Part shown: positions 542 through 16,656 of the stretch, in pieces
Layout: each line of letters starts with the position of its first letter
Numbering within the stretch: position 1 is the stretch's first letter
Source: Sphingobacteriales bacterium
GTDB lineage: Bacteria > Bacteroidota > Bacteroidia > Chitinophagales > Chitinophagaceae
Assembly: GCA_024640385.1 (NCBI GenBank)
Contig: JAHEFC010000015.1
Span: 3,215 to 19,870, forward strand
Direction: 5' to 3'
Length of the DNA stretch: 16,656 nucleotides
The notes under the pieces: generated by a model
Databases searched by the model: none
What the model was told of the DNA's origin: nothing
What the model saw: only the letters and a program-made list of their open reading frames with translations
Translations under genes and position numbers: made by a program

Positions 542-2715
542 TATTCTACCACCCACCAGGAGTAGGTCCCGGCTGGGAGGGTAACAGGTAACATGACCTT
601 ATAATCCCGGCTAACGCTGTAAGTTTTTGACACCCCTTCCTTCTCCCTGATCTTCACAGTTGAATGTAACCCGGTATAATAAACAGGAACAGCGATCTCC
701 GTTTTGATCTCCTTGTCCGTTGGATTGAACAACATCATCAACCCTTTCTGCTTCAACGCAGGGTTCACATGCATCCAGCCATCCCAGCTTCTTCCGTCGG
801 CCCTCCTCAGGTGTATAAGATCAGCATTAAGTATGTCCCTGTATTTCTTATACCAATTGATCACACCAATAACCGTTTGCCTGGTTGTCTCCGTATCATA
901 TAATCTTGGGCCCCGATAACAGGCCTGTACACCTGCACCATAGTATTGCATCATCAGCTGCTCATAATCTTTCAAATGTTCACTCAGGGGTTCCAATACG
1001 GCTTCCGGACCCCCTCCCTGGTATTTTACCAGGGGCACAAAGCCCCAACCCATTGACGGTGTTTTCTCCCAGGTGCCGTCAAATATATTCTGCCTGTTCA
1101 GGATCTTCTGGTTCTCCCTGGGCAGTGAAAAATTCACCTCACGATAGCCGATGGCGATCTTATGCGTACCATCCAGGAAATACCAGTCCGGTGCGTTGAT
1201 ATACACCCCTTTCTCATTCAGCCAACGATACAGATCTTTTTGTATCTCCATCTGCCTCCACTGCGAATCATCCAGGTCATTATGACCCGGATGGGTTGTT
1301 GAAGCACATAGATCTCCCGGATAGGGGCCATCATTCTCCCAAATATCAAAGCCGGTATACGTAAAAAAGTTCTTGATCTTATCCCTGTAAGCCAGCCCCC
1401 ATTTGCTTCCAAAACAAGGCGCGTTGCCAAAAAATGCACCCCCGGGTTTCCCGGTTGCCGGATTGATCACATCATCTTCATCACTGATCTTCCTTGAACT
1501 GAACAATGAATACCCGCCTATCATGATCCCCTTACGGTGCGCATATTCAGTGAGTTTTTTCCAGCGGCTTAAGTTTGCCTCAGACTGGTCTTCCATATTC
1601 AGGTGCGAGCCAAAACTCAATATCAGCGCCTCATAGCCAGTAGAATCACACTGGTCCACCGCCCTCATCACCTCATCATCACTCCTGCTCACCAGGTGCA
1701 TGAAAATGGGATTGGAATTGGTCCAGGGAGCAACCTTATTGTACATCTTCCTTACAAACAAACCTCTCCGTTCACGGTCGTAACTGTCCATCAATAATTC
1801 ATAGGTCCTGACCGATCTAAAATTTTCACCCGGCTTTAATGCTATACCCGGGGCCTTATCAGGGTATACCTCCAGCACACAGGGCGTCTGGTAATTATAG
1901 TTCACCTGTGAAGTATAACTGCTGTCGATCAGCCAGTGGGTTGTCTGGTCACTGATCTGGTACCGCATGGCATTGTTGAAAGCGTAATTCGTTTCAATGT
2001 AAATGCCCTGTTGAGTTTTCATCTGCGCAGGACTGCCCACCACAGCGCTCTCTTCCTCCACGAGGTCCAGGATCTCGTTCTTTACCCGGTCTATTTTATA
2101 AGAAGAACTGCCGCTGTTATCAATAGTCAGATATTTCACTACCAGGGGCAGACCGTCATACATTTCATAATGCACTTTTACCAGGAGGCCTGGCAATAAC
2201 GGAGAAGAATATGCGAATATCAGCACCTTGCCGGTAGGTGATTTTTTGTTGGAGCTCCATCCTACGGGTTTCCATTGGAACTGATCTTTTAACTCACTGA
2301 CCTCATAACCTTTCAATTGCAGATCTTCATTATGAGCGGTCATTTGACCTACCCAGTTGTTTAACAGGTATGCCTTCTCTTTCTGACCATATAAACCACC
2401 TACCTTATGTTCTTTGCCGTCGATTTTTATGACCGCCTCAGGCTTCACGGCACGCAGCAACTGTTGCCCGTTCATCATGTTGGTATATTCTATACAGGCA
2501 ACATTCGGGCTCAGCCTGAAAACTCTTTTGACCAGACCGTTGTAAAGCACAATATCTTTTTTATCATCACTCAGGTAAACAGCGGCCCTGATCTCAGAAG
2601 GCTTTACAAGCCAGTCCGACGCATACGATTTCAATTCCCTTGGCAGTGATTGAATAGTGGTTTGCGCCGCAGCTATTTGAGAAAACAGTGCAGCTACTAA
2701 AAAGATCCTCTTCAT
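541..2715 (-). CDS. Secreted glycoside-hydrolase-like protein (possible alpha-galactosidase-like, clan GH-D type)
   Basis: A 724-residue protein with a signal peptide (residues 1-18, ending AAAQ), so exported to the periplasm or beyond. Three parts can be inferred. Residues about 20-320 are beta-rich, like the N-terminal supersandwich of large glycosidases. Residues about 330-630 look like a TIM barrel with aromatic and acidic strand ends, notably FDIWENDGPYPGDLC at 456-470 and NAPDWYFLDG at 507-516. Residues about 645-724 form a C-terminal beta-sandwich. Asp457, Asp462 and Asp510 are the obvious catalytic candidates. The architecture recalls alpha-galactosidase-like (GH27/GH36-related) proteins, but I cannot assign a family with certainty and the substrate is unknown. 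The start lies 6 bases after the stop of the acetyltransferase gene, so the two are probably cotranscribed; the LacI gene follows. Confidence 0.6.
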   Translation of the reverse strand: MKRIFLVAALFSQIAAAQTTIQSLPRELKSYASDWLVKPSEIRAAVYLSDDKKDIVLYNGLVKRVFRLSPNVACIEYTNMMNGQQLLRAVKPEAVIKIDGKEHKVGGLYGQKEKAYLLNNWVGQMTAHNEDLQLKGYEVSELKDQFQWKPVGWSSNKKSPTGKVLIFAYSSPLLPGLLVKVHYEMYDGLPLVVKYLTIDNSGSSSYKIDRVKNEILDLVEEESAVVGSPAQMKTQQGIYIETNYAFNNAMRYQISDQTTHWLIDSSYTSQVNYNYQTPCVLEVYPDKAPGIALKPGENFRSVRTYELLMDSYDRERRGLFVRKMYNKVAPWTNSNPIFMHLVSRSDDEVMRAVDQCDSTGYEALILSFGSHLNMEDQSEANLSRWKKLTEYAHRKGIMIGGYSLFSSRKISDEDDVINPATGKPGGAFFGNAPCFGSKWGLAYRDKIKNFFTYTGFDIWENDGPYPGDLCASTTHPGHNDLDDSQWRQMEIQKDLYRWLNEKGVYINAPDWYFLDGTHKIAIGYREVNFSLPRENQKILNRQNIFDGTWEKTPSMGWGFVPLVKYQGGGPEAVLEPLSEHLKDYEQLMMQYYGAGVQACYRGPRLYDTETTRQTVIGVINWYKKYRDILNADLIHLRRADGRSWDGWMHVNPALKQKGLMMLFNPTDKEIKTEIAVPVYYTGLHSTVKIREKEGVSKTYSVSRDYKVMLPVTLPAGTYSWWVVE

Positions 2716-8385: not shown

Positions 8386-9672
8386 TTAGTTATCAACCTC
8401 TTTGATCGCAGGTCTGCTGTCGGCTTTACGCGGCTGGTATTCCAGTTTGAAACCAGAAAGATCCGGCCTGAATGGCCTTGGCCTTTTCAGCTCATAGGAA
8501 TAAATGGTTTGCCCCAGTTTATTCATGAATGGCCAGCCTACCGAATCGTACTCATATTTATCATCATTCAAAATACCATCGGCATTCACATAAATGGTTG
8601 CCGTAAGCATGAATTCAATATTATTTTTAAAATCTGCCACATAACTCACATCGGTTAAGCATCCATAGGCCCAGCCTACTTTATTGAAAACCCTTACGTG
8701 TTCAGGCATCAGGTGCGTGCTATCCCTGAAATAGAATTTCACGTAGCTGTCATAAAACTTAGCCGTATCATATTTTGGGTAATCGCTCTCCGACGGGTAT
8801 TGCGACAGGTATCTGTACAGAAAAGCATAATCGTTTTTACTTAAATGGAAGCGCTGTTTTTTGGATACCGACTGGGGAAACATGACCGATTGCAGCAATC
8901 CCTGCAAATGTTCAACTGTCAGATTATTGGCAAACGTAAAATCAATGGGCTCGTTGACCAGGCTGTCTTTGGCATTGAGATAACCCTTGCCCATCCTGTT
9001 GATATGTGAGAAGTTGAACGCATCAGGATTATATGCTTCTGGCTGCAGGTAGATGAGTTTTCCCTCTGTATCAATGAATCGTATTGGATTGGTATACCTG
9101 TTCTGGTCCACGGTAAGGCCCATGAACTGCCTGCTGATCCTCAGGTCGGGATAACCCATCTCATGCAACCTCCTGTTGATGGTTTGCTGCCCGATGAACT
9201 GGTACATCCTGTTATAGGCATCATTATCACTGACCAGCAAGGCTTTCCGGATGAAGTGTGCGATGGAAGGCTTTCCTGTTTCCGAAGTGCTGTCGGCATA
9301 TAGTTTCCGCTGCCAGGGCCTGGAGCTGTCGAACTGCATGAGGGTGTTCATATCAACCCCTTCATTCTTCATGCTGCGTAATTTCTCCAGTGAAAGAAAT
9401 GCAAGCGGCAGCTTTACAGTAGATGCCGGATTGAAATAAATCAGTGAATCAACGTTGAGATAGTAATTATGGAAAGAAGGCTTGTTCTTTTTATCGCGGT
9501 CTATTCTCGTATATATCACCTGGTAACGGTAGACCTCAGGATGACTGATCACCTCTTGCAGTAAAGGATCACTATTCTGTTTAAGGATATCCAACAGCTC
9601 TTTATCTGTTCTGGGCTGGGAAAAAGCTGCGAGCGAAACCAACAACAGAACCGGGATGAATACGCTTTTCAT
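8386..9672 (-). CDS. Secreted serine hydrolase with class A beta-lactamase fold
   Basis: A 428-residue exported protein (signal peptide about 1-18, ending AAFSQ). It carries the three active-site motifs of the class A beta-lactamase/DD-peptidase fold: SxxK at Ser84-Lys87 (NPASTVK), SDN at 148-150 (LVSDNDAYN), and a KTG-like KVG at 331-333 (NKVGWAYG). SxxK to SDN is 64 residues, close to TEM-type enzymes (60), but SDN to KVG is 183 residues against about 104, so roughly 80 residues are inserted, probably within about 185-310. I see no ExxLN omega-loop motif, so deacylation differs from true class A beta-lactamases and antibiotic hydrolysis should not be assumed. A peptidase, amidase or esterase role on cell-wall or other amides is equally possible. 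The VOC gene lies 15 bases upstream and the amidohydrolase gene downstream. Confidence 0.85.
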   Translation of the reverse strand: MKSVFIPVLLLVSLAAFSQPRTDKELLDILKQNSDPLLQEVISHPEVYRYQVIYTRIDRDKKNKPSFHNYYLNVDSLIYFNPASTVKLPLAFLSLEKLRSMKNEGVDMNTLMQFDSSRPWQRKLYADSTSETGKPSIAHFIRKALLVSDNDAYNRMYQFIGQQTINRRLHEMGYPDLRISRQFMGLTVDQNRYTNPIRFIDTEGKLIYLQPEAYNPDAFNFSHINRMGKGYLNAKDSLVNEPIDFTFANNLTVEHLQGLLQSVMFPQSVSKKQRFHLSKNDYAFLYRYLSQYPSESDYPKYDTAKFYDSYVKFYFRDSTHLMPEHVRVFNKVGWAYGCLTDVSYVADFKNNIEFMLTATIYVNADGILNDDKYEYDSVGWPFMNKLGQTIYSYELKRPRPFRPDLSGFKLEYQPRKADSRPAIKEVDN

Positions 9673-9687
9673 AAAATAATAAATGTA

Positions 9688-10068
9688 CTAAGGTTCCTGA
9701 TACAAACCCAGCACATTGCCTGTTGGATCCCTGAACCAAGCCGTGATCTCAGGTGCATCTTCTCCAACCTGCCGTACTATGTGGCCCCCATTTTCAACAA
9801 TCAGCATCATGGTTGCTTCAATATCATCTACCATGATATGGATCAGCGTACCGAGTTCAACCACTGGCTTCCTGTCGGTTCTCCAGGTACCGCTGACCTC
9901 GCCAACGCCATCATCAAAAGCGATCGATCCATCGCCCCTAACTCTTTTCATCCATCCGAATATCTTCTCATAAAATGTGGCCGACTCCTCAATATCCCGT
10001 GTAGGCAGCTCTATGTAACAGATCTTACCGTTACCGTATGTGGGTACCTTATTGTTAGCCATTTTCAT
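9688..10068 (-). CDS. VOC-family (glyoxalase/bleomycin-resistance-like) protein
   Basis: A 126-residue cytoplasmic protein with the paired beta-alpha-beta-beta-beta VOC fold. The first half begins GNGKICYIELPTRDIEESATFYEKIFGW (12-39). The second half includes LIHIMVDDIEATMMLIVENGG (75-95) and ends with the family signature FRDPTGNVLGLYQ (112-124). VOC proteins may be metal-dependent isomerases, dioxygenases, thiol transferases or antibiotic-binding proteins; nothing here decides among them. The frame is open up to an ATG at 10110, but the conserved domain starts directly after ATG 10068 or 10062; I use 10068, which is uncertain by a few codons. It is the first gene of the minus-strand group and is divergent from the acylase gene. 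Confidence 0.85.
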   Translation of the reverse strand: MKMANNKVPTYGNGKICYIELPTRDIEESATFYEKIFGWMKRVRGDGSIAFDDGVGEVSGTWRTDRKPVVELGTLIHIMVDDIEATMMLIVENGGHIVRQVGEDAPEITAWFRDPTGNVLGLYQEP

Positions 10069-10118
10069 GATTTTTGTAGTTACTAATGTAAAGATTGCAT
10101 CAGTAAACATTTAAAATA

Positions 10119-10165: not shown

Positions 10166-12241
10166 ATGAGATACTACCTGATCGTTCTGTTCATTGCCAC
10201 CATCTTTCATGCAACCGCCCAGCAAAAACCAGCTACGATTCAATGGGATGAATGGGGCATCCCACATATCACAGCAAATAATGATGAAGAACTGATGTAT
10301 GCCCAGGGCTGGGCTTCCATGCAAATGCATGGCAATCTCATCACGGAACTATACGGAAGGGCCAGGGGCAAGGGCGCTGAATATTGGGGCAAACAAAAGC
10401 TGAAGGAAGACATGTTCATTAACATGCTCGGCTTTCCAGAACTGGCAGAAGAATGGACGGCCAATCAGGACCCTGCATATAAAAAAATGCTGTCGGCATA
10501 TGTCAGGGGACTGAATGATTATGCCTCCGCACATCCCGAATCGGTTAAACCCGAAAATCGTGTTATCCTTCCTTTCTCTGAAAAAGATGTTAATCTGCAC
10601 GCGATATTCGTTGTATTTGGAAGATTTGTTGGCGGGAGTGAATTAGGAGGAGACCTGGAATGGAAAGAAATGGGGTCGAACACACTCGCAGTGGGCCCAT
10701 CCCGTTCCGCTTCAAAAAAAGCCATGCTGGTTCAGAATCCTCATTTGCCCTGGTTCGGAGAGTTCCTGTTTGCGGAATTCCATATGATGAAACCCGGGCA
10801 GAATATCTATGGCTCTAATCTGGTAGGATTACCCGGTATCGCCATCGCCTTCAATGAAAACCTGGGCTGGAGCCATACCAATAACACCATCGATAATGCA
10901 GATACCTATGAGTTGCAGTTGAAAGATGGCGGCTACCTCCTGGATGGAGTAAAAAAAGATTTTACAGTAAGAAAGAAAATACTCAAATACAAAGACGGGG
11001 ATGGGAAGATGGGAGAACAGGAACTCACCATACTTACCGCAGAACAAGGCCCAGTAGTGAATATGGGTAAAGAAAAAGCCCTGGCGATCAGGATGCCGGG
11101 GTACGACAGGCCAAACATTGGCTACCAGTGGTGGAAGATGGCGAACGCAAAGAGTTTTGAGGAATTTGAATCAGCGGTAAAGATGGCGCAGATCCCTTTC
11201 TGGAATATTATGTATGCCGATAAAAAAGGAAACATCTTCTACCTGTTCAATGGGCTGGTTCCAAAACGCGCTGACGGAGCTTGGGCCAAATGGGATAACA
11301 TTATCAAGGGGGGAAAATCTTCAGATATATGGACTACGGTACATCCGTATGAAGACCTTCCCAAGTTAAAAAATCCATCGAGCGGATGGTTACAGAATTC
11401 CAACGATCCTCCCTGGAGCTGCACTTACCCTTTCGAAATTGATGCTAAGAAATACCCGCCGTATATGTCGCCCCATTTCATGGATTTCCGCAACCAAAGC
11501 TCCATTCGAATGATGGCCGACGACTCTTCGATCACGTTCGATGAACTGGTGGCATATAAACATTCGACCAGGCTGGAACTTGCGGAAAGAGTATTGGATG
11601 ACCTGTTCAAAGCCATAGATGAGCATGGCACTGCAACCAGCAAAGAAGCAAAAGCTGTGCTGGAGAAATGGGACCGAAATGCGGATGCCACCAGCACTGG
11701 CGCTGTTTTGTTCATTCAGTGGGCCATGGCCATGAACCCGTTCTCAGGCCGGATGTTTGCGGTTAAATGGGACGAAAAGAATCCACGAAAAACACCAGAT
11801 GGACTCGCAGATCCCAAGGGGGCTGTGGCAAAACTCGATGAAGTGGCCGCAAAACTTAAAACCAAATATGGCACCATGGCAATTCCATACGGCGATATAG
11901 TTCGCCTTCGTTCAGGTACCATTGACCTCCCGGCAAATGGCAGCGAGGGAGCCGTTGGAAGTTTTCGTGTTGCAGGCGCTTCCCCTGTTGATGAAAAAAC
12001 ATTTCAAATAGATGGGGGCGACTCCTGGGTGGGCGTGATCGAATTCGGGAATAAAATAAAAGCGAAAGTACTCATGAGTTATGGCAACTCCTCACAGGAA
12101 GGAAATCCACATTTCGGCGACCAGCTGAAATATTTTTCGGAGAAAAAACTCCGCGATGCGTATTTCTATCCGGCAGATGTAGAGAAACATAAAGTAAGAA
12201 CGGAACAGTTAAAGAACGGCAGGTTCATTCTGCTTCAGTAG
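10166..12241 (+). CDS. Penicillin-acylase-family Ntn hydrolase (secreted N-acyl amidase)
   Basis: A 691-residue precursor with a signal peptide (about 1-18, ending ATAQ). It is expected to self-cleave between Gly170 and Ser171 in EMGSNTLAVGPS, giving an alpha chain of about 150 residues and a beta chain of 521 whose N-terminal Ser171 is the nucleophile. Supporting motifs are WDEWGIPHI (27-35), AQGWASMQMH (46-55), NPHLPW (191-196), and GWSHTNNTIDNADTYEL, which supplies the oxyanion asparagine. The family deacylates penicillins, aculeacin-type lipopeptides or N-acyl-homoserine lactones in the periplasm; the substrate here cannot be read from sequence. ATG at 10166 is required, because the ATG at 10161 runs into a stop after one codon. 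Its 3' end overlaps the convergent M48 gene by 17 bases. Confidence 0.93.
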   Translation: MRYYLIVLFIATIFHATAQQKPATIQWDEWGIPHITANNDEELMYAQGWASMQMHGNLITELYGRARGKGAEYWGKQKLKEDMFINMLGFPELAEEWTANQDPAYKKMLSAYVRGLNDYASAHPESVKPENRVILPFSEKDVNLHAIFVVFGRFVGGSELGGDLEWKEMGSNTLAVGPSRSASKKAMLVQNPHLPWFGEFLFAEFHMMKPGQNIYGSNLVGLPGIAIAFNENLGWSHTNNTIDNADTYELQLKDGGYLLDGVKKDFTVRKKILKYKDGDGKMGEQELTILTAEQGPVVNMGKEKALAIRMPGYDRPNIGYQWWKMANAKSFEEFESAVKMAQIPFWNIMYADKKGNIFYLFNGLVPKRADGAWAKWDNIIKGGKSSDIWTTVHPYEDLPKLKNPSSGWLQNSNDPPWSCTYPFEIDAKKYPPYMSPHFMDFRNQSSIRMMADDSSITFDELVAYKHSTRLELAERVLDDLFKAIDEHGTATSKEAKAVLEKWDRNADATSTGAVLFIQWAMAMNPFSGRMFAVKWDEKNPRKTPDGLADPKGAVAKLDEVAAKLKTKYGTMAIPYGDIVRLRSGTIDLPANGSEGAVGSFRVAGASPVDEKTFQIDGGDSWVGVIEFGNKIKAKVLMSYGNSSQEGNPHFGDQLKYFSEKKLRDAYFYPADVEKHKVRTEQLKNGRFILLQ

Positions 12242-13025
12242 CGCCAACAGCAGTCTTCAATTGCTTCCATGTTTGAGTGGCAAGTACCGGCCTGGACTTG
12301 TTAGACTTGCCTTTGCTGTATTCAACAATATATTCACCCCTCGCTTTAGAATCGGGATGTGTACTCACCCATGTGAGGTAACGCATATTATCCGGGGCAT
12401 TTTCTCCCAGCCTGTACAGGAAATTGGCAAGATGATCAGGTGGAAGGTTTGCCATATTCATATAGTCTACAGACTTCATATCTGCCTCTTTCTCCAATTT
12501 ACGGTCATAGGCTGAAGAAGATAGCAGTCTTGTTATTTCAGCCACCTCACCTCCGCCGCCGCCTGTTGTCACCGAGATCAATACAGACAGGCCTACTTCC
12601 TTCAGCAGCTTTTTCATCACGTGTTTTTCCTGCAAATGTGCCAGCTCATGTCCCATCACTCCAGCCAGTTCGCCTTCATCCAGAGCTTCCACGATCAAAC
12701 CTTTGTTGACAACGATATGGCCATTGGGCAAGGCAAATGCATTGACGTCTTCAATATCAACAATATGCAGCCTGATGGCGCTTTTATCGATCTGATTGGA
12801 TGTACAGATCCTTGTAAGAATACTGTCAACCGGTTTTGTGACAAGGGTATCCCCGATCTCCTTATCCTTATAGATCTCCCAGAACAGATCTCCCAGTTTC
12901 TCTTCTGTGTTTTTAGTGATCTTCTCGATCCTCAATAGCTTCATCCAGTTCACCTGGCTCAGGATCAGCCATGTCCCAAAAAACAAACCGATCACAATGG
13001 TCAGCTGCAGTAATATCTTCTTCAT
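12225..13025 (-). CDS. Membrane-anchored M48-family zinc metalloprotease
   Basis: A 266-residue protease with one N-terminal hydrophobic segment (about 4-23) and no lipobox, so probably inner-membrane anchored with its domain outside. The zinc motif HELAH is at 126-130 (catalytic Glu127). The third ligand is Glu180 in KEADMKSVDYM. The late M48 motif STHPDSKAR is at 221-229. NAFALPNGHIVVNKGLI at 95-111 is the conserved strand before the active helix. A pentaglycine loop lies at 155-159. M48 enzymes degrade damaged or misassembled membrane and envelope proteins (HtpX, BepA and LoiP are examples). The start comes 1 base after the DUF4870 stop, which makes it the last gene of a four-gene operon. 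The stop lies inside the convergent acylase gene. Confidence 0.93.
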   Translation of the reverse strand: MKKILLQLTIVIGLFFGTWLILSQVNWMKLLRIEKITKNTEEKLGDLFWEIYKDKEIGDTLVTKPVDSILTRICTSNQIDKSAIRLHIVDIEDVNAFALPNGHIVVNKGLIVEALDEGELAGVMGHELAHLQEKHVMKKLLKEVGLSVLISVTTGGGGGEVAEITRLLSSSAYDRKLEKEADMKSVDYMNMANLPPDHLANFLYRLGENAPDNMRYLTWVSTHPDSKARGEYIVEYSKGKSNKSRPVLATQTWKQLKTAVGATEAE

Positions 13026-13026
13026 A

Positions 13027-13455
13027 TCAACGAGGGCATATCAGGTTTGTGAGGTCTCCATATAGCCACCAACGGACATGCTCGCCCCTCCTGGTATGGA
13101 TGGCAGTATATATAGTGGCAATGAACTCAATGAGGTTAAAAAGAATTACTGTGATCACGTAAGCCACATAATAGTTGGTCACTACCGCATCGCTGAAAAC
13201 TATAGAAACCGTCCACCAGAATCCAAAGCTGTTCATGAACAATAAGGAGAACTGCGACAGCAGGGCCTGTGTACAATGCCACCGTACAAAATATGTACCC
13301 TTTCGATTACCCATATAAAATATGAATGTAGCGATGAGGTTGATGATAGGAAGAGGCAACCCCGCTATTGCTGCAACCAGCGACATGAGATAACTATTCG
13401 AAGCTTTTTCTGCTTCATGATCAGTAGGCGAATAGCTTACGTTATCAATGATCAT
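13027..13455 (-). CDS. DUF4870-family multi-pass membrane protein
   Basis: A 142-residue integral membrane protein with about four hydrophobic segments (roughly 23-48, 65-87, 92-118, with the first probably a hairpin pair). It has the DUF4870 pattern: SYLMSLVAAIAGLP near 21-34 and the conserved FVRWHCTQALLSQ at 57-69. The frame extends upstream to 13476, but ATG at 13455 is preferred: it overlaps the DUF2752 stop in a 4-base ATGA, a classic translational-coupling arrangement. No biochemical function is known for the family. Position between DUF2752 and the M48 protease, with almost no spacing, implies a shared role. Confidence 0.88.
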   Translation of the reverse strand: MIIDNVSYSPTDHEAEKASNSYLMSLVAAIAGLPLPIINLIATFIFYMGNRKGTYFVRWHCTQALLSQFSLLFMNSFGFWWTVSIVFSDAVVTNYYVAYVITVILFNLIEFIATIYTAIHTRRGEHVRWWLYGDLTNLICPR

Positions 13456-13856
13456 AGTCCTTTGTAAATATTCCACATCCAGTTTGCCAGTAACAGCAGC
13501 AGGGCCGTAATGGCAAATCTTTTCCGGCTGAAAAACAACTCGGCTTTTCTGTAGGCTATGAACAGGGTCCGCTTTTTATTGAACAGGTCGTACGCGATCC
13601 ACAATGGGATCAGAGCCATGGAGATCAGGAGGAAAAGTCCCATCGGATTCCATAACACGGCCTGTACAATATCTCCCTGCATCAATGATATGACTGACCT
13701 GGTAGAACCGCAGGATGGGCAGGGGATGCCTGCTACACTCTTGAATATGCATGCGTGCACTTCATTGTCTGCAGCTGTAATCAGGTTATAATAAATCCAT
13801 GCATAGCCTGCGGCACACATAACAGCCAGTAAACCATATAGTCTGTTCCTGTTCAT
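13452..13856 (-). CDS. DUF2752-family membrane protein
   Basis: A 134-residue membrane protein. Residues about 7-27, 69-92 and 114-131 are hydrophobic. The family signature is at 36-54: CIFKSVAGIPCPSCGSTRS, with Cys36, Cys46, Cys49 and Arg53. The CPxCGxTR core suggests metal binding or a redox pair, but neither is established for the family. Its stop overlaps the DUF4870 start by 4 bases, and its start lies 3 bases after the TM2 gene. The length is normal for the family. Confidence 0.9.
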   Translation of the reverse strand: MNRNRLYGLLAVMCAAGYAWIYYNLITAADNEVHACIFKSVAGIPCPSCGSTRSVISLMQGDIVQAVLWNPMGLFLLISMALIPLWIAYDLFNKKRTLFIAYRKAELFFSRKRFAITALLLLLANWMWNIYKGL

Positions 13857-13859
13857 TGG

Positions 13860-14198
13860 TCAGGCAAGTAGGGGTTGAAGCTGTGCCAGGTTCTTTTCGC
13901 GTGTGGCTCCCATGATCAGGAACCAGTCTATGATAGCCCAGATACCAAATCCGCCACAGGTAAGCAGTTTGCCAATACCGAGACCGGTATCGCCGATCAT
14001 GAACCTGTCGATACCTAGATAACCAACAAGCAAAGAAATGATCAGGATCATGGTAGGATCTTTAAACTGCATGGTTTGCAGAACGGCCCACCTGGAATCG
14101 TCAGTTTGTATAAGCCTCTCTCTTATAGGCAATAAGGTTTGACTTTCAAAATACTTCGAATTAGACATGATGAACATGTCTACTTTAGATGAATCCAT
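13860..14198 (-). CDS. TM2-domain membrane protein
   Basis: A 112-residue protein whose C-terminal half is a TM2 domain: two hydrophobic helices (about 50-69 and 78-98) joined by a short turn with the diagnostic GIDRFMIGDTGLGIGKLLTCGGFGIWAIIDWFLI pattern at 62-95, including Asp64-Arg65-Phe66. An amphipathic N-terminal segment of about 45 residues precedes it. ATG at 14198 is chosen because related Bacteroidota TM2 proteins, from memory, begin with a similar KVDMF segment; downstream ATGs at 14177 and 14168 are alternatives. It is the first gene of the TM2-DUF2752-DUF4870-M48 operon. TM2 proteins are widespread but mostly uncharacterised in bacteria. Confidence 0.9.
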   Translation of the reverse strand: MDSSKVDMFIMSNSKYFESQTLLPIRERLIQTDDSRWAVLQTMQFKDPTMILIISLLVGYLGIDRFMIGDTGLGIGKLLTCGGFGIWAIIDWFLIMGATREKNLAQLQPLLA

Positions 14199-14210
14199 AA
14201 AAGGGAAACG

Positions 14211-14237
14211 TTGTAGAGTTAATGGGTAATAATTTTG
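14211..14237 (+). promoter_or_regulatory. Possible Bacteroidota-type promoter for the FAD oxidase gene
   Basis: TAATTTTG at 14230-14237 exactly matches the Bacteroidota -7 consensus TAnnTTTG. The best -33 candidate is TTG at 14211-14213, but its 16-base spacing is shorter than the usual 19-21. It lies about 108 bases before the oxidase ATG, in a 146-base AT-rich gap between divergent genes. An 8-base exact match can occur by chance in such sequence. Confidence 0.35.
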
Positions 14238-14344
14238 GTTTCAGAGTTATGATAATAACGTCTGCAGTACAATAATAATATCTGATAGATAACTTTTATG
14301 CGTTTTATTAAAATAATTCTTCGTTCAATTTTTATAAATTGTTG

Positions 14345-15475
14345 ATGATGATCAGTTACGATCATATCGTCATAGGCGTGGGGTCCATGGGATCGGCAGC
14401 ATGCTATCATTTAGCCAGGCGTGGCAGATCTGTTTTAGGCCTGGAACAGTTCACCATACCACATGAATTGGGATCACATGCAGGAGAAACCAGGATCATC
14501 CGGAAAGCCTATTTCGAGCATCCGGATTATATCCCCTTGCTGATCAGGGCTTATGAGAACTGGCAGGAACTGACGGAACGTTCGGGTAAACAACTATACC
14601 ATAAAACAGGTTTGTTCTACGCAGCCCCAAAAGGCCATGAACTGATCAACAGTATCAGGAGATCTGCGGAACTGTACAACATTCCACTTGAATCGGGTGT
14701 GCCAACAAAATTTAGTTTACCAACTGGCTACGAATCTTTGTTTGAACCGGATGCAGGTTATGTGGAACCGGAAAATACGATAAGGGCACTCGTACATCAT
14801 GCTATTGATTTGGGTGCTGAAATTCATGAGCGGGAACAGGTATTGGGGTGGAATGGCGGAGGGCAGCCTGGGTATGTTACTGTTCGAACCAATATTGCTG
14901 AATACAGATGTAAGAAACTTATAGTCACAGCCGGGGCCTGGTCTGCAAAAATGATCCCGGGAATTGATAAACATCTAAGGGTAACGCGGCAGGTACTGGC
15001 CTGGCTCAAACCGGCAGAACCCGAACAATTCACCAAAGAAAAATTTCCCTGTTGGCTTATTGCTACTGAAAATGATAAAGGCGCCTATTATGGGTTTCCC
15101 ATCATCCCCTCACATTTGGGCGCGTTGAAGTTTGCATATCATTATCCCGGCAGCGACACAGAGGCTGATTCTGTAAACAGGAAGGTTGTAATTGAAGACA
15201 CAGAGAATCTTCTTGACTTTGCCCGAAAATTTTTACCGCCGGCATCTGGTGAGATAGAAAGCACAAAGGTTTGCCTGTATTCCAATTCGCCAGACGAAAA
15301 TTTTGTGATCGATAATCTTGCGGGCATGGAAGATCAGGTTTGTGTGGCCTGGGGGTTCTCGGGTCATGGGTTCAAGTTTGTTCCCGTAGTTGGAGAGATC
15401 CTGGCGGATCTTGCCATGTACGGGAAAACATCATTGCCAATAGAATTTCTGAATGCCGGGAGATTTTCTGCCTGA
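14345..15475 (+). CDS. solA: FAD-dependent N-methyl amino-acid oxidase (monomeric sarcosine oxidase / SolA type)
   Basis: A 376-residue cytoplasmic flavoenzyme of the MSOX/N-methyltryptophan oxidase family. It has the N-terminal dinucleotide-binding GVGSMG loop (residues 11-16), SHAGETRIIR at 44-53, TAGAWS at 195-200, Cys310 in KVCLYSNSPDENFVID (the expected covalent 8-alpha-S-cysteinyl flavin site) and WGFSGHGFKFVPVVGE near 336-351. These enzymes oxidatively demethylate N-methyl amino acids with O2, releasing formaldehyde and H2O2. The length fits the family. The frame extends to TTG codons at 14339 and 14342, but the ATGs at 14345 and 14348 place the flavin loop correctly; I use 14345. The substrate (sarcosine, N-methyltryptophan or other) is not resolved, so the symbol is by family resemblance only. 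The gene stands alone on its strand. Confidence 0.88.
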   Translation: MMISYDHIVIGVGSMGSAACYHLARRGRSVLGLEQFTIPHELGSHAGETRIIRKAYFEHPDYIPLLIRAYENWQELTERSGKQLYHKTGLFYAAPKGHELINSIRRSAELYNIPLESGVPTKFSLPTGYESLFEPDAGYVEPENTIRALVHHAIDLGAEIHEREQVLGWNGGGQPGYVTVRTNIAEYRCKKLIVTAGAWSAKMIPGIDKHLRVTRQVLAWLKPAEPEQFTKEKFPCWLIATENDKGAYYGFPIIPSHLGALKFAYHYPGSDTEADSVNRKVVIEDTENLLDFARKFLPPASGEIESTKVCLYSNSPDENFVIDNLAGMEDQVCVAWGFSGHGFKFVPVVGEILADLAMYGKTSLPIEFLNAGRFSA

Positions 15476-15535: not shown

Positions 15536-16656
15536 CTAGTTCCTGATAATTTTGCCTGTTCTCATCTCTTTACCCACGATCACTTTATAGAACAGAAGGT
15601 TCTGCTTCATCCCGCTGAAATCTACCAATGTTTCAGCCCCTTTGTTCAGGCTGACCTTTTTATCAGCAACGATCTGTCCCAGGTTATTTATGATCATCAC
15701 ATGGCCATCCCCTGATTCAGGAGAAAGGATCCTGATCCTGAATGAACCCTGGTGTGGATTCGGATAAACTCCGGTTGTGAACGGCATCACCTGCATCATG
15801 GCCTGTGATGGCGCCCTCACGGTCCCTATACTTTGGGATACGGACAATGAATAGCAGAGATATGACAATCCTCCTGTTATGCTTACATAGTATGTAGTAC
15901 CTCCAAGCAACGAATACTGTTTAGTGGTTGCTGTGGAATTTGAAGGCGTTAATGCCGGGGCATTATTACCTGCGGGATAAATATTAAATGTAAATGCAGT
16001 TGTTGGATGGGTCAGTGTAACGATATAGGTACCTGATGTTGATGTATTGAATTTGAACCAATCAGCTACATCTGTTGACAATGCGATCCTTGCATTGACG
16101 GGAACACCTGCAGTGATCTGCTTAGCGTTGTTCTTACTGTTGTTGGATTCAAATTCATCAGAGCCATTATCGGTAATGGTAATGATCTTTGAAGTAGTGC
16201 AATTATTGGCATCTTTCACCCAAACCGTGTAAGTACCGCCGCCATAAAAACCCGAGAAGGATCCGGAACCCTGGTATTGTCCATTATCCAGTTTGTATTG
16301 GTAAGGTGATGTGCCGCCGGCGCCTGTTGCCGTAATTGTTCCGGGTGTATTACACCCTGTTGCATTTGTGCCTTTTGCGGTCAGACTCAATGCTGCAGCA
16401 GGCTGAGTGATGGTATAGGTTTTTGTAAGCACACAGCCGCTGCCCAGGTCTGTAACAGCAATGGTATAGTTACCTGGCAACAAACCGGAAATGTCTTCAG
16501 ATGTAGCACTTATTCCTCCGGTCCACTGCACCAGGAATCCTGCACCCGAACCTCCATTGAGCGTGATGTCTATGGAACCTGTAGCTGTTCCCCTGCAGAG
16601 TACATTGTTTACAACAGCATTTATAAGAATCTCAGGCTGTGAAGGTAGATTCACAT
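15536..16656 (-). CDS. C-terminal part of a large T9SS-secreted SprB-repeat protein (N terminus beyond window)
   Basis: The frame is open to the right edge; the first visible complete codon is a GTG that is probably internal, so only the last 373 or so residues are seen. In order: a SprB-type repeat (about 8-85, with LCRGTATGSIDI and LLPGNYTIAVTD), a second related repeat (about 88-162, with GCNTPGTITATGAGGTSPYQY and TYTVWVKDANNC), a prepeptidase-C-terminal-like beta domain (about 166-275, with DEFESNNSKNNAKQI and TTYYVSITGG), and a T9SS type A sorting domain (about 294-372, starting GVYPNPHQGSF, ending RTGKIIRN). The protein is exported through the type IX system and attached to or released from the cell surface. 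Such repeat proteins act as adhesins or carry enzymes at the N terminus, which is not visible. A strong terminator follows. Confidence 0.92.
   Translation of the reverse strand, partial: VNLPSQPEILINAVVNNVLCRGTATGSIDITLNGGSGAGFLVQWTGGISATSEDISGLLPGNYTIAVTDLGSGCVLTKTYTITQPAAALSLTAKGTNATGCNTPGTITATGAGGTSPYQYKLDNGQYQGSGSFSGFYGGGTYTVWVKDANNCTTSKIITITDNGSDEFESNNSKNNAKQITAGVPVNARIALSTDVADWFKFNTSTSGTYIVTLTHPTTAFTFNIYPAGNNAPALTPSNSTATTKQYSLLGGTTYYVSITGGLSYLCYSLSVSQSIGTVRAPSQAMMQVMPFTTGVYPNPHQGSFRIRILSPESGDGHVMIINNLGQIVADKKVSLNKGAETLVDFSGMKQNLLFYKVIVGKEMRTGKIIRN

Follow-up and report, generated by a model that had tools for sequence, protein, structure and literature searches.

A recurring four-gene set of TM2, DUF2752, DUF4870 and M48 protease genes in Bacteroidota

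Four genes are packed on the minus strand of a contig from a Sphingobacteriales bacterium (GenBank assembly GCA_024640385.1, contig JAHEFC010000015.1), and their arrangement raises the question of whether they form one functional unit and what such a unit would do. The whole stretch that was analysed (16,656 nucleotides (nt), hereafter the window) carries, in order of transcription, genes for a TM2 protein of 112 residues (13860..14198; PF05154, 1.5e-14), a DUF2752 protein of 134 residues (13452..13856; PF10825, 2.3e-16), a DUF4870 (HOTT) protein of 142 residues (13027..13455; Pfam, 3.9e-6) and an M48 zinc metalloprotease of 266 residues (12225..13025; PF01435, 3.9e-24). Three bases separate the TM2 stop from the DUF2752 ATG, the DUF2752 and DUF4870 genes share four bases (ATGA, a junction of -4, with the DUF4870 ATG at 13455 inside the DUF2752 stop), and one base lies between the end of DUF4870 and the M48 ATG. 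The original prediction had named the same four minus-strand families with junctions of 3, -4 and 1 bases; positions and Pfam matches agreed with it, and the junctions, re-read from the sequence, gave the same values. No NCBIfam match was obtained for the TM2, DUF2752 and DUF4870 proteins, and NCBIfam returned no named subfamily for the M48 protein. We consider it very probable that the four genes constitute one functional unit.

Conservation of the order was determined by using a DUF4870 profile scan of GTDB species genomes, which yielded 247 relatives; the best 80 loci by DUF4870 similarity were fetched, and their record titles name Bacteroidota, with several Flavobacterium species included (for example L051, L059 and L124). 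The order TM2, DUF2752, DUF4870, M48 was complete in 78 of these 80 loci, an upper-end figure since the loci were picked as best DUF4870 matches. The two incomplete loci were one in which the contig stops just after DUF4870 (L125) and one in which the place of M48 is taken by another gene, methyltransferase-like by eye (L058). With start codons chosen by script, the gap between TM2 and DUF2752 was ≤ 10 nt in 80/80 loci, the DUF2752/DUF4870 junction was -4 in 70/80, and the gap between DUF4870 and M48 was ≤ 10 nt in 74/78. Because the order recurs across so many related loci, the arrangement is more than chance. Flanking proteins of at least 60 residues from the 80 loci were clustered and no family was present in more than four loci, so that, for open reading frames of this size, the module is limited to these four genes.

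A second, unselected set of 395 Bacteroidota genomes, including the window's own, was searched with the window DUF4870 protein. Matches were found in 15 genomes, two of which (G076, with two stops, and G243; E-values 6e-4 and 1e-3) were dropped as weak, and the 13 good matches indicate that the module is rare. All four genes lay in the same order in 10 of the 13, including two genomes of a distant family (G281 and G442) in which the order was still complete at a DUF4870 identity of 34-37%. In another genome a contig end truncates TM2 to its final 40 residues (G178), one had the module without M48 (G393), and in a third the two halves, TM2-DUF2752 and DUF4870-M48, were both retained on one contig, on opposite strands and about 13 kb from each other (G195; locus L265, C14:137500-156500). 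The same genomes were searched with TM2, which matched in 19; five with E-values above 1e-40 were excluded, which left a strong set of 14, and every one of the 13 genomes that matched DUF4870 well belonged to it. A good DUF4870 match was thus never found without the module TM2 (13/13), and a single genome carried the TM2-DUF2752 pair alone (G438). The tightly coupled, functionally linked module of the original prediction was borne out by this order and by the tight junctions: the neighbourhood test, which asked whether the families are rarely adjacent outside close relatives, failed to refute it in either the best loci or the unselected genomes.

Partial versions of the module were also present within the window's own genus, where this TM2 was found at an E-value of 1e-15 or better in 11 of 41 genomes, six of them with the full order. 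Contig ends interrupted two others (G014, in which the other three genes were seen and TM2 was cut, and G016, cut after DUF2752). As judged at the locus only, one genome had TM2-DUF2752-M48 and no DUF4870 (G026), and two had TM2-DUF2752 only (G010 and G036). In a twelfth genome (G006), DUF2752, DUF4870 and M48 were seen next to a contig end. The same gene, judged by eye, lies upstream in loci L012 and L013, so gene loss probably occurred in place. An M48 of the module type was not found in the whole genomes of G010, G036, G393 and G438, in which matches were 1e-23 or weaker, or none, at completeness values of 79-99%. This nested presence and absence suggests that TM2-DUF2752 behaves as a core to which DUF4870 and M48 are losable additions.

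Pairwise distances of the four proteins were correlated (r 0.48-0.81, against a permutation maximum of 0.255 with 500 permutations per protein pair), although part of this correlation would be expected from shared descent alone. Three of the 80 loci (L058, L125 and one with a short M48) were excluded from both this calculation and the tree below. These data bear on the simplest rival, in which four unrelated small membrane genes are co-transcribed by chance as an operon of convenience. The TM2 and DUF2752 families are indeed also found alone or in other pairs, but a near-constant order among different flanks, strict co-occurrence and correlated evolution leave this explanation scarcely credible.

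A tree was built from the four concatenated proteins (90 rows, quick method), in which 30 of 87 inner branches were strongly supported and long-branch warnings were raised for several rows. The tree requires 22 changes of order label, with a minimum possible of 6 and a shuffled mean of 26. The window was placed beside two Flammeovirgaceae and one Chitinophagales genome, and the four copies from its own genus formed a separate clade. Since the tree mixes orders, transfer of the whole block is likely, within the limits set by 42 rows without an order label and by many rows that are metagenome bins with uncertain names; the module thus likely moves between Bacteroidota as one block. Such spread could also fit an accessory module for defence or antagonism, acting against phages or as toxin immunity, a reading to which the rare and patchy distribution (13/395), the mixing of orders in the tree and the self-contained cassette without fixed flanks all lend themselves. 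The searches made gave it little support: the four window proteins had no PADLOC match up to an E-value of 0.1, DUF4870 was not found in plasmids, and TM2 was not found in IMG/VR contigs. When the 100 nearest flanking proteins were scanned, 31 PADLOC families matched, of which the 25 listed match one protein each and many are helicase models. Together with the strong conservation of TM2 and DUF4870 described below, these results make a defence role improbable.

What the unit does was approached through its proteins. Mean identity across 77 loci and the window was 74% for TM2, 72% for DUF4870, 51% for M48 and 45% for DUF2752. The first 48 or so residues of the TM2 protein form a conserved, charged segment, which is followed by a two-helix TM2 hairpin (mean column identity of the protein 72% over 18 rows), and its C81 was invariant in 90/90 aligned rows. 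Three long helices of the DUF2752 protein were read as transmembrane (structure model with a mean predicted local distance difference test score, pLDDT, of 89.6). Its cysteines C36, C46 and C49 were invariant in 90/90 rows; C36 and the CPSCGSTR motif, which contains C46 and C49, lie in the stretch after helix 1, and C14 was common (77/90). The predicted CPxCGxTR core was recovered as CPSCGSTR at residues 46-53. Loop charges suggest, by the positive-inside argument, that this cysteine loop faces the periplasm. Cysteines were also frequent in DUF4870 (C61 in 87/90 rows, C140 in 83/90) and in M48 (C74 in 83/90).

A rival reading is a thiol or metal sensor, in which C36, C46 and C49 of DUF2752 and C81 of TM2 would jointly bind a metal, or form a disulfide that can switch, on the periplasmic side; its state would release the M48 plug so that the protease cuts a signalling membrane protein, with DUF4870 as adaptor. 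The invariance of the four cysteines in a set where DUF2752 otherwise varies strongly, the resemblance of CPSC to CPxC thiol motifs and the predicted periplasmic position of the DUF2752 loop speak for such a sensor. Against it, the flanks contain no recurring output gene, and a cysteine near the place of C81 appears to be common in TM2 proteins: in other TM2 genes beside DUF2752, five of six loci examined had a cysteine three residues further on and none had one at the C81 place (the sixth, L002, had a TCG stretch with different spacing), and the shifted cysteine was also present in a TM2 protein with no DUF2752 neighbour in view (L147). We regard the sensor as unlikely, yet as the foremost of the functional rivals.

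The DUF2752 family itself is widespread, occurring in 154 of 296 Bacteroidota genomes. Among the 30 best Bacteroidota loci, DUF2752 stood beside a small two-helix protein (TM2 or CCC-motif) in about a dozen, by eye, and three of the 30 were the module itself (L232, L241 and L242). This suggests a general partnership of DUF2752 with small two-helix proteins in Bacteroidota, and the four-gene module resembles a more elaborate version of such a pair.

For the third protein, the Pfam gathering score was exceeded by a small amount (27.3 bits against 25). It models well, and Tic20 chains ranked first among solved structures, barely above unrelated helical bundles; on this model the DUF4870 protein is probably Tic20-like. 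DUF4870 is the HOTT family, which PMC11628618 groups with Tic20 and the MamF-like magnetosome proteins in a single superfamily; MamF-like HOTT proteins are described there as required for the membrane targeting of several magnetosome proteins. Three small membrane families without known biochemistry had originally been described; for DUF4870 this is corrected, in that the family has some known relatives. A paper on the SHOCT domain (PMC3581485) mentions both Tic20 and the TM2 domain.

The M48 protein keeps its zinc ligands in 90/90 rows (H126, E127 and H130 of HExxH at 126-130, and E178) and carries an HPx4R plug at 223-229 (H223 and P224 in 90/90 rows, R229 in 89/90). It has one N-terminal membrane anchor, behind which the catalytic domain would lie on the periplasmic side, as charges suggest by the same positive-inside argument. 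The first 30 residues contained no cysteine in 81/90 rows, and the protein is therefore mostly not a lipoprotein. Profile matches included PDB 3c37 (1.3e-48) and BepA chains (about 5e-30). It was not BepA proper (NCBIfam score 68.9 bits, cut-off 570, with only positions 41-249 matching of a 483-position profile that includes the TPR part), nor LoiP proper (53.6 bits against a cut-off of 365). A membrane-anchored zinc protease akin to envelope M48 enzymes had been anticipated, and the BepA relationship, intact ligands and plug support this in kind. According to PMC7950410, which defines the HPx4R motif, M48 proteases share this plug throughout the family and its free movement is essential for BepA function; a quality-control role in membrane-protein biogenesis is proposed there for the four E. 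coli M48 proteases.

In an export or maturation reading, DUF4870, TM2 and DUF2752 would form a small channel or a lipid- or peptide-handling complex, and M48 would trim an exported peptide or protein. The Tic20-like ranking of DUF4870, the tight packing of all four genes and the M48 domain judged periplasmic agree with this; across the 80 loci, however, no substrate gene of at least 60 residues is found repeatedly next to the module, and some loci keep the other genes without M48. It is, in our judgement, rather unlikely.

From the families' known relatives and the predicted topology, we tentatively favour the possibility that the four genes encode an inner-membrane accessory machine for envelope-protein biogenesis or quality control. 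In such a machine the TM2 and DUF2752 proteins would pair in the membrane, with their cysteines (three from DUF2752, one from TM2) exposed towards the periplasm. The DUF4870 protein, probably Tic20-like, would join this pair and handle hydrophobic client segments, as proposed for its MamF-like relatives with magnetosome proteins. M48, with its one-helix anchor and periplasmic catalytic domain, would be kept latent by the HPx4R plug and would degrade or process clients presented by the membrane part.

Regulation was examined in the leaders, taken as the 200 bases before TM2, in which common words pointed to Rfam. DUF805 RNA (RF03081, clan CL00115), reportedly first described by Weinberg and colleagues, was present at gathering score before TM2 in 35/80 loci, and DUF805b (RF02914) in one further locus (36/80 in total). 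In 36/36 the RNA ended 13-27 nt before the TM2 start. Ten more loci were added by a looser motif search, and outside the 80 the RNA preceded TM2 in L033 and L040 and DUF805b did so in L038. Two short stems showed paired changes in 24 leaders (5/7 pairs, with a small covariation term). Scans of nine same-genus loci did not find the leader RNA, and those of L034, L036 and L041-L044 did not find it either. The window's leader region (14199..14338, minus strand) is without a DUF805-clan RNA: no Rfam match was obtained up to an E-value of 1 in 13900-14500, and none at gathering score in the whole window. The clan was likewise not found in the window's own genome, in which 150 of 581 first-look candidates were scored.

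Across the 395 genomes DUF805 RNA was detected in 68, with 54 over the cut-off. A total of 77 sites outside the module (L139-L215) were read downstream, and a rough script found the first gene in 69. By eye, the products of these genes include DUF805 proteins, aquaporins, small TM2 proteins, lipoproteins and secreted proteins, and such a mixture, with many membrane or secreted products, argues against a riboswitch for a single metabolite. Two further features were observed. One locus (L083) has a second DUF805 RNA away from the module (1886-1954, plus strand); about 12 bases after it comes the first ATG of a gene that, by eye, encodes a putative lipoprotein. TAnnTTTG, a possible Bacteroidetes -7 promoter element, occurred in 17/80 TM2 leaders, compared with 7.4 in shuffles.

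No description of the four-gene combination was found in a literature search, nor of DUF2752 by itself, nor of TM2 with M48 in Bacteroidota, most subscription papers being outside its scope; the DUF805 papers found, by title or abstract start, contained nothing on the RNA. The set in Bacteroidota looks like one undescribed machine. DUF2752, bacterial TM2 and most DUF4870/HOTT proteins, all families with no established role, are linked here to one another and to a protease family whose mechanism has been studied, and the orphan DUF805 RNA gains numerous client operons of uniform make-up that can serve in looking for its trigger. In a bolder and doubtful extension, TM2 and DUF2752 would form a core whose joint four-cysteine site (3+1), turned towards the periplasm, gates a Tic20-like insertase together with an M48 protease held latent; the unit would be controlled by an orphan RNA in many hosts, be exchanged between Bacteroidota as a block and represent a new class of membrane machine. 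If true, this would give DUF2752, prokaryotic TM2 proteins and DUF805 RNA a joint function.

The operon is bordered in the window by a convergent penicillin-amidase gene (10166-12241), whose 3' end overlaps that of M48 by 17 bases (12225-12241), and on the other side by a divergent gene for a flavin adenine dinucleotide (FAD)-dependent oxidoreductase. Elsewhere, a gene for a Beta-lactamase2-family protein (8386-9672) has a glyoxalase-family gene directly upstream (9688-10110), and 15536-16654 encodes SprB repeats and a C-terminal secretion sorting domain (Por_Secre_tail).

Compared with known systems, the module shares with the HOTT/Tic20/MamF-like superfamily the DUF4870 Pfam match and the first place of Tic20 chains in the structural ranking, whereas MamF-like proteins serve magnetosomes, and the main text of PMC11628618 names neither TM2, M48 nor Bacteroidota. 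Many module loci carry DUF805 RNA upstream of TM2, yet many unrelated genes also follow this RNA elsewhere. With ordinary DUF2752 pairs the module has in common a C-x(n)-CPxCG-like core and a small membrane-protein neighbour; these pairs (other than L232, L241 and L242) have no DUF4870 or M48 match nearby, and the TM2 partners examined are without the module's VDMF N-terminus and mostly without C81. Finally, the periplasmic E. coli proteases BepA, LoiP and YcaL have the M48 family, the zinc ligands and the HPx4R plug in common with the module protease, but the latter has one N-terminal anchor with no room for a TPR domain, and it is encoded in a compact operon that also specifies three small membrane proteins.

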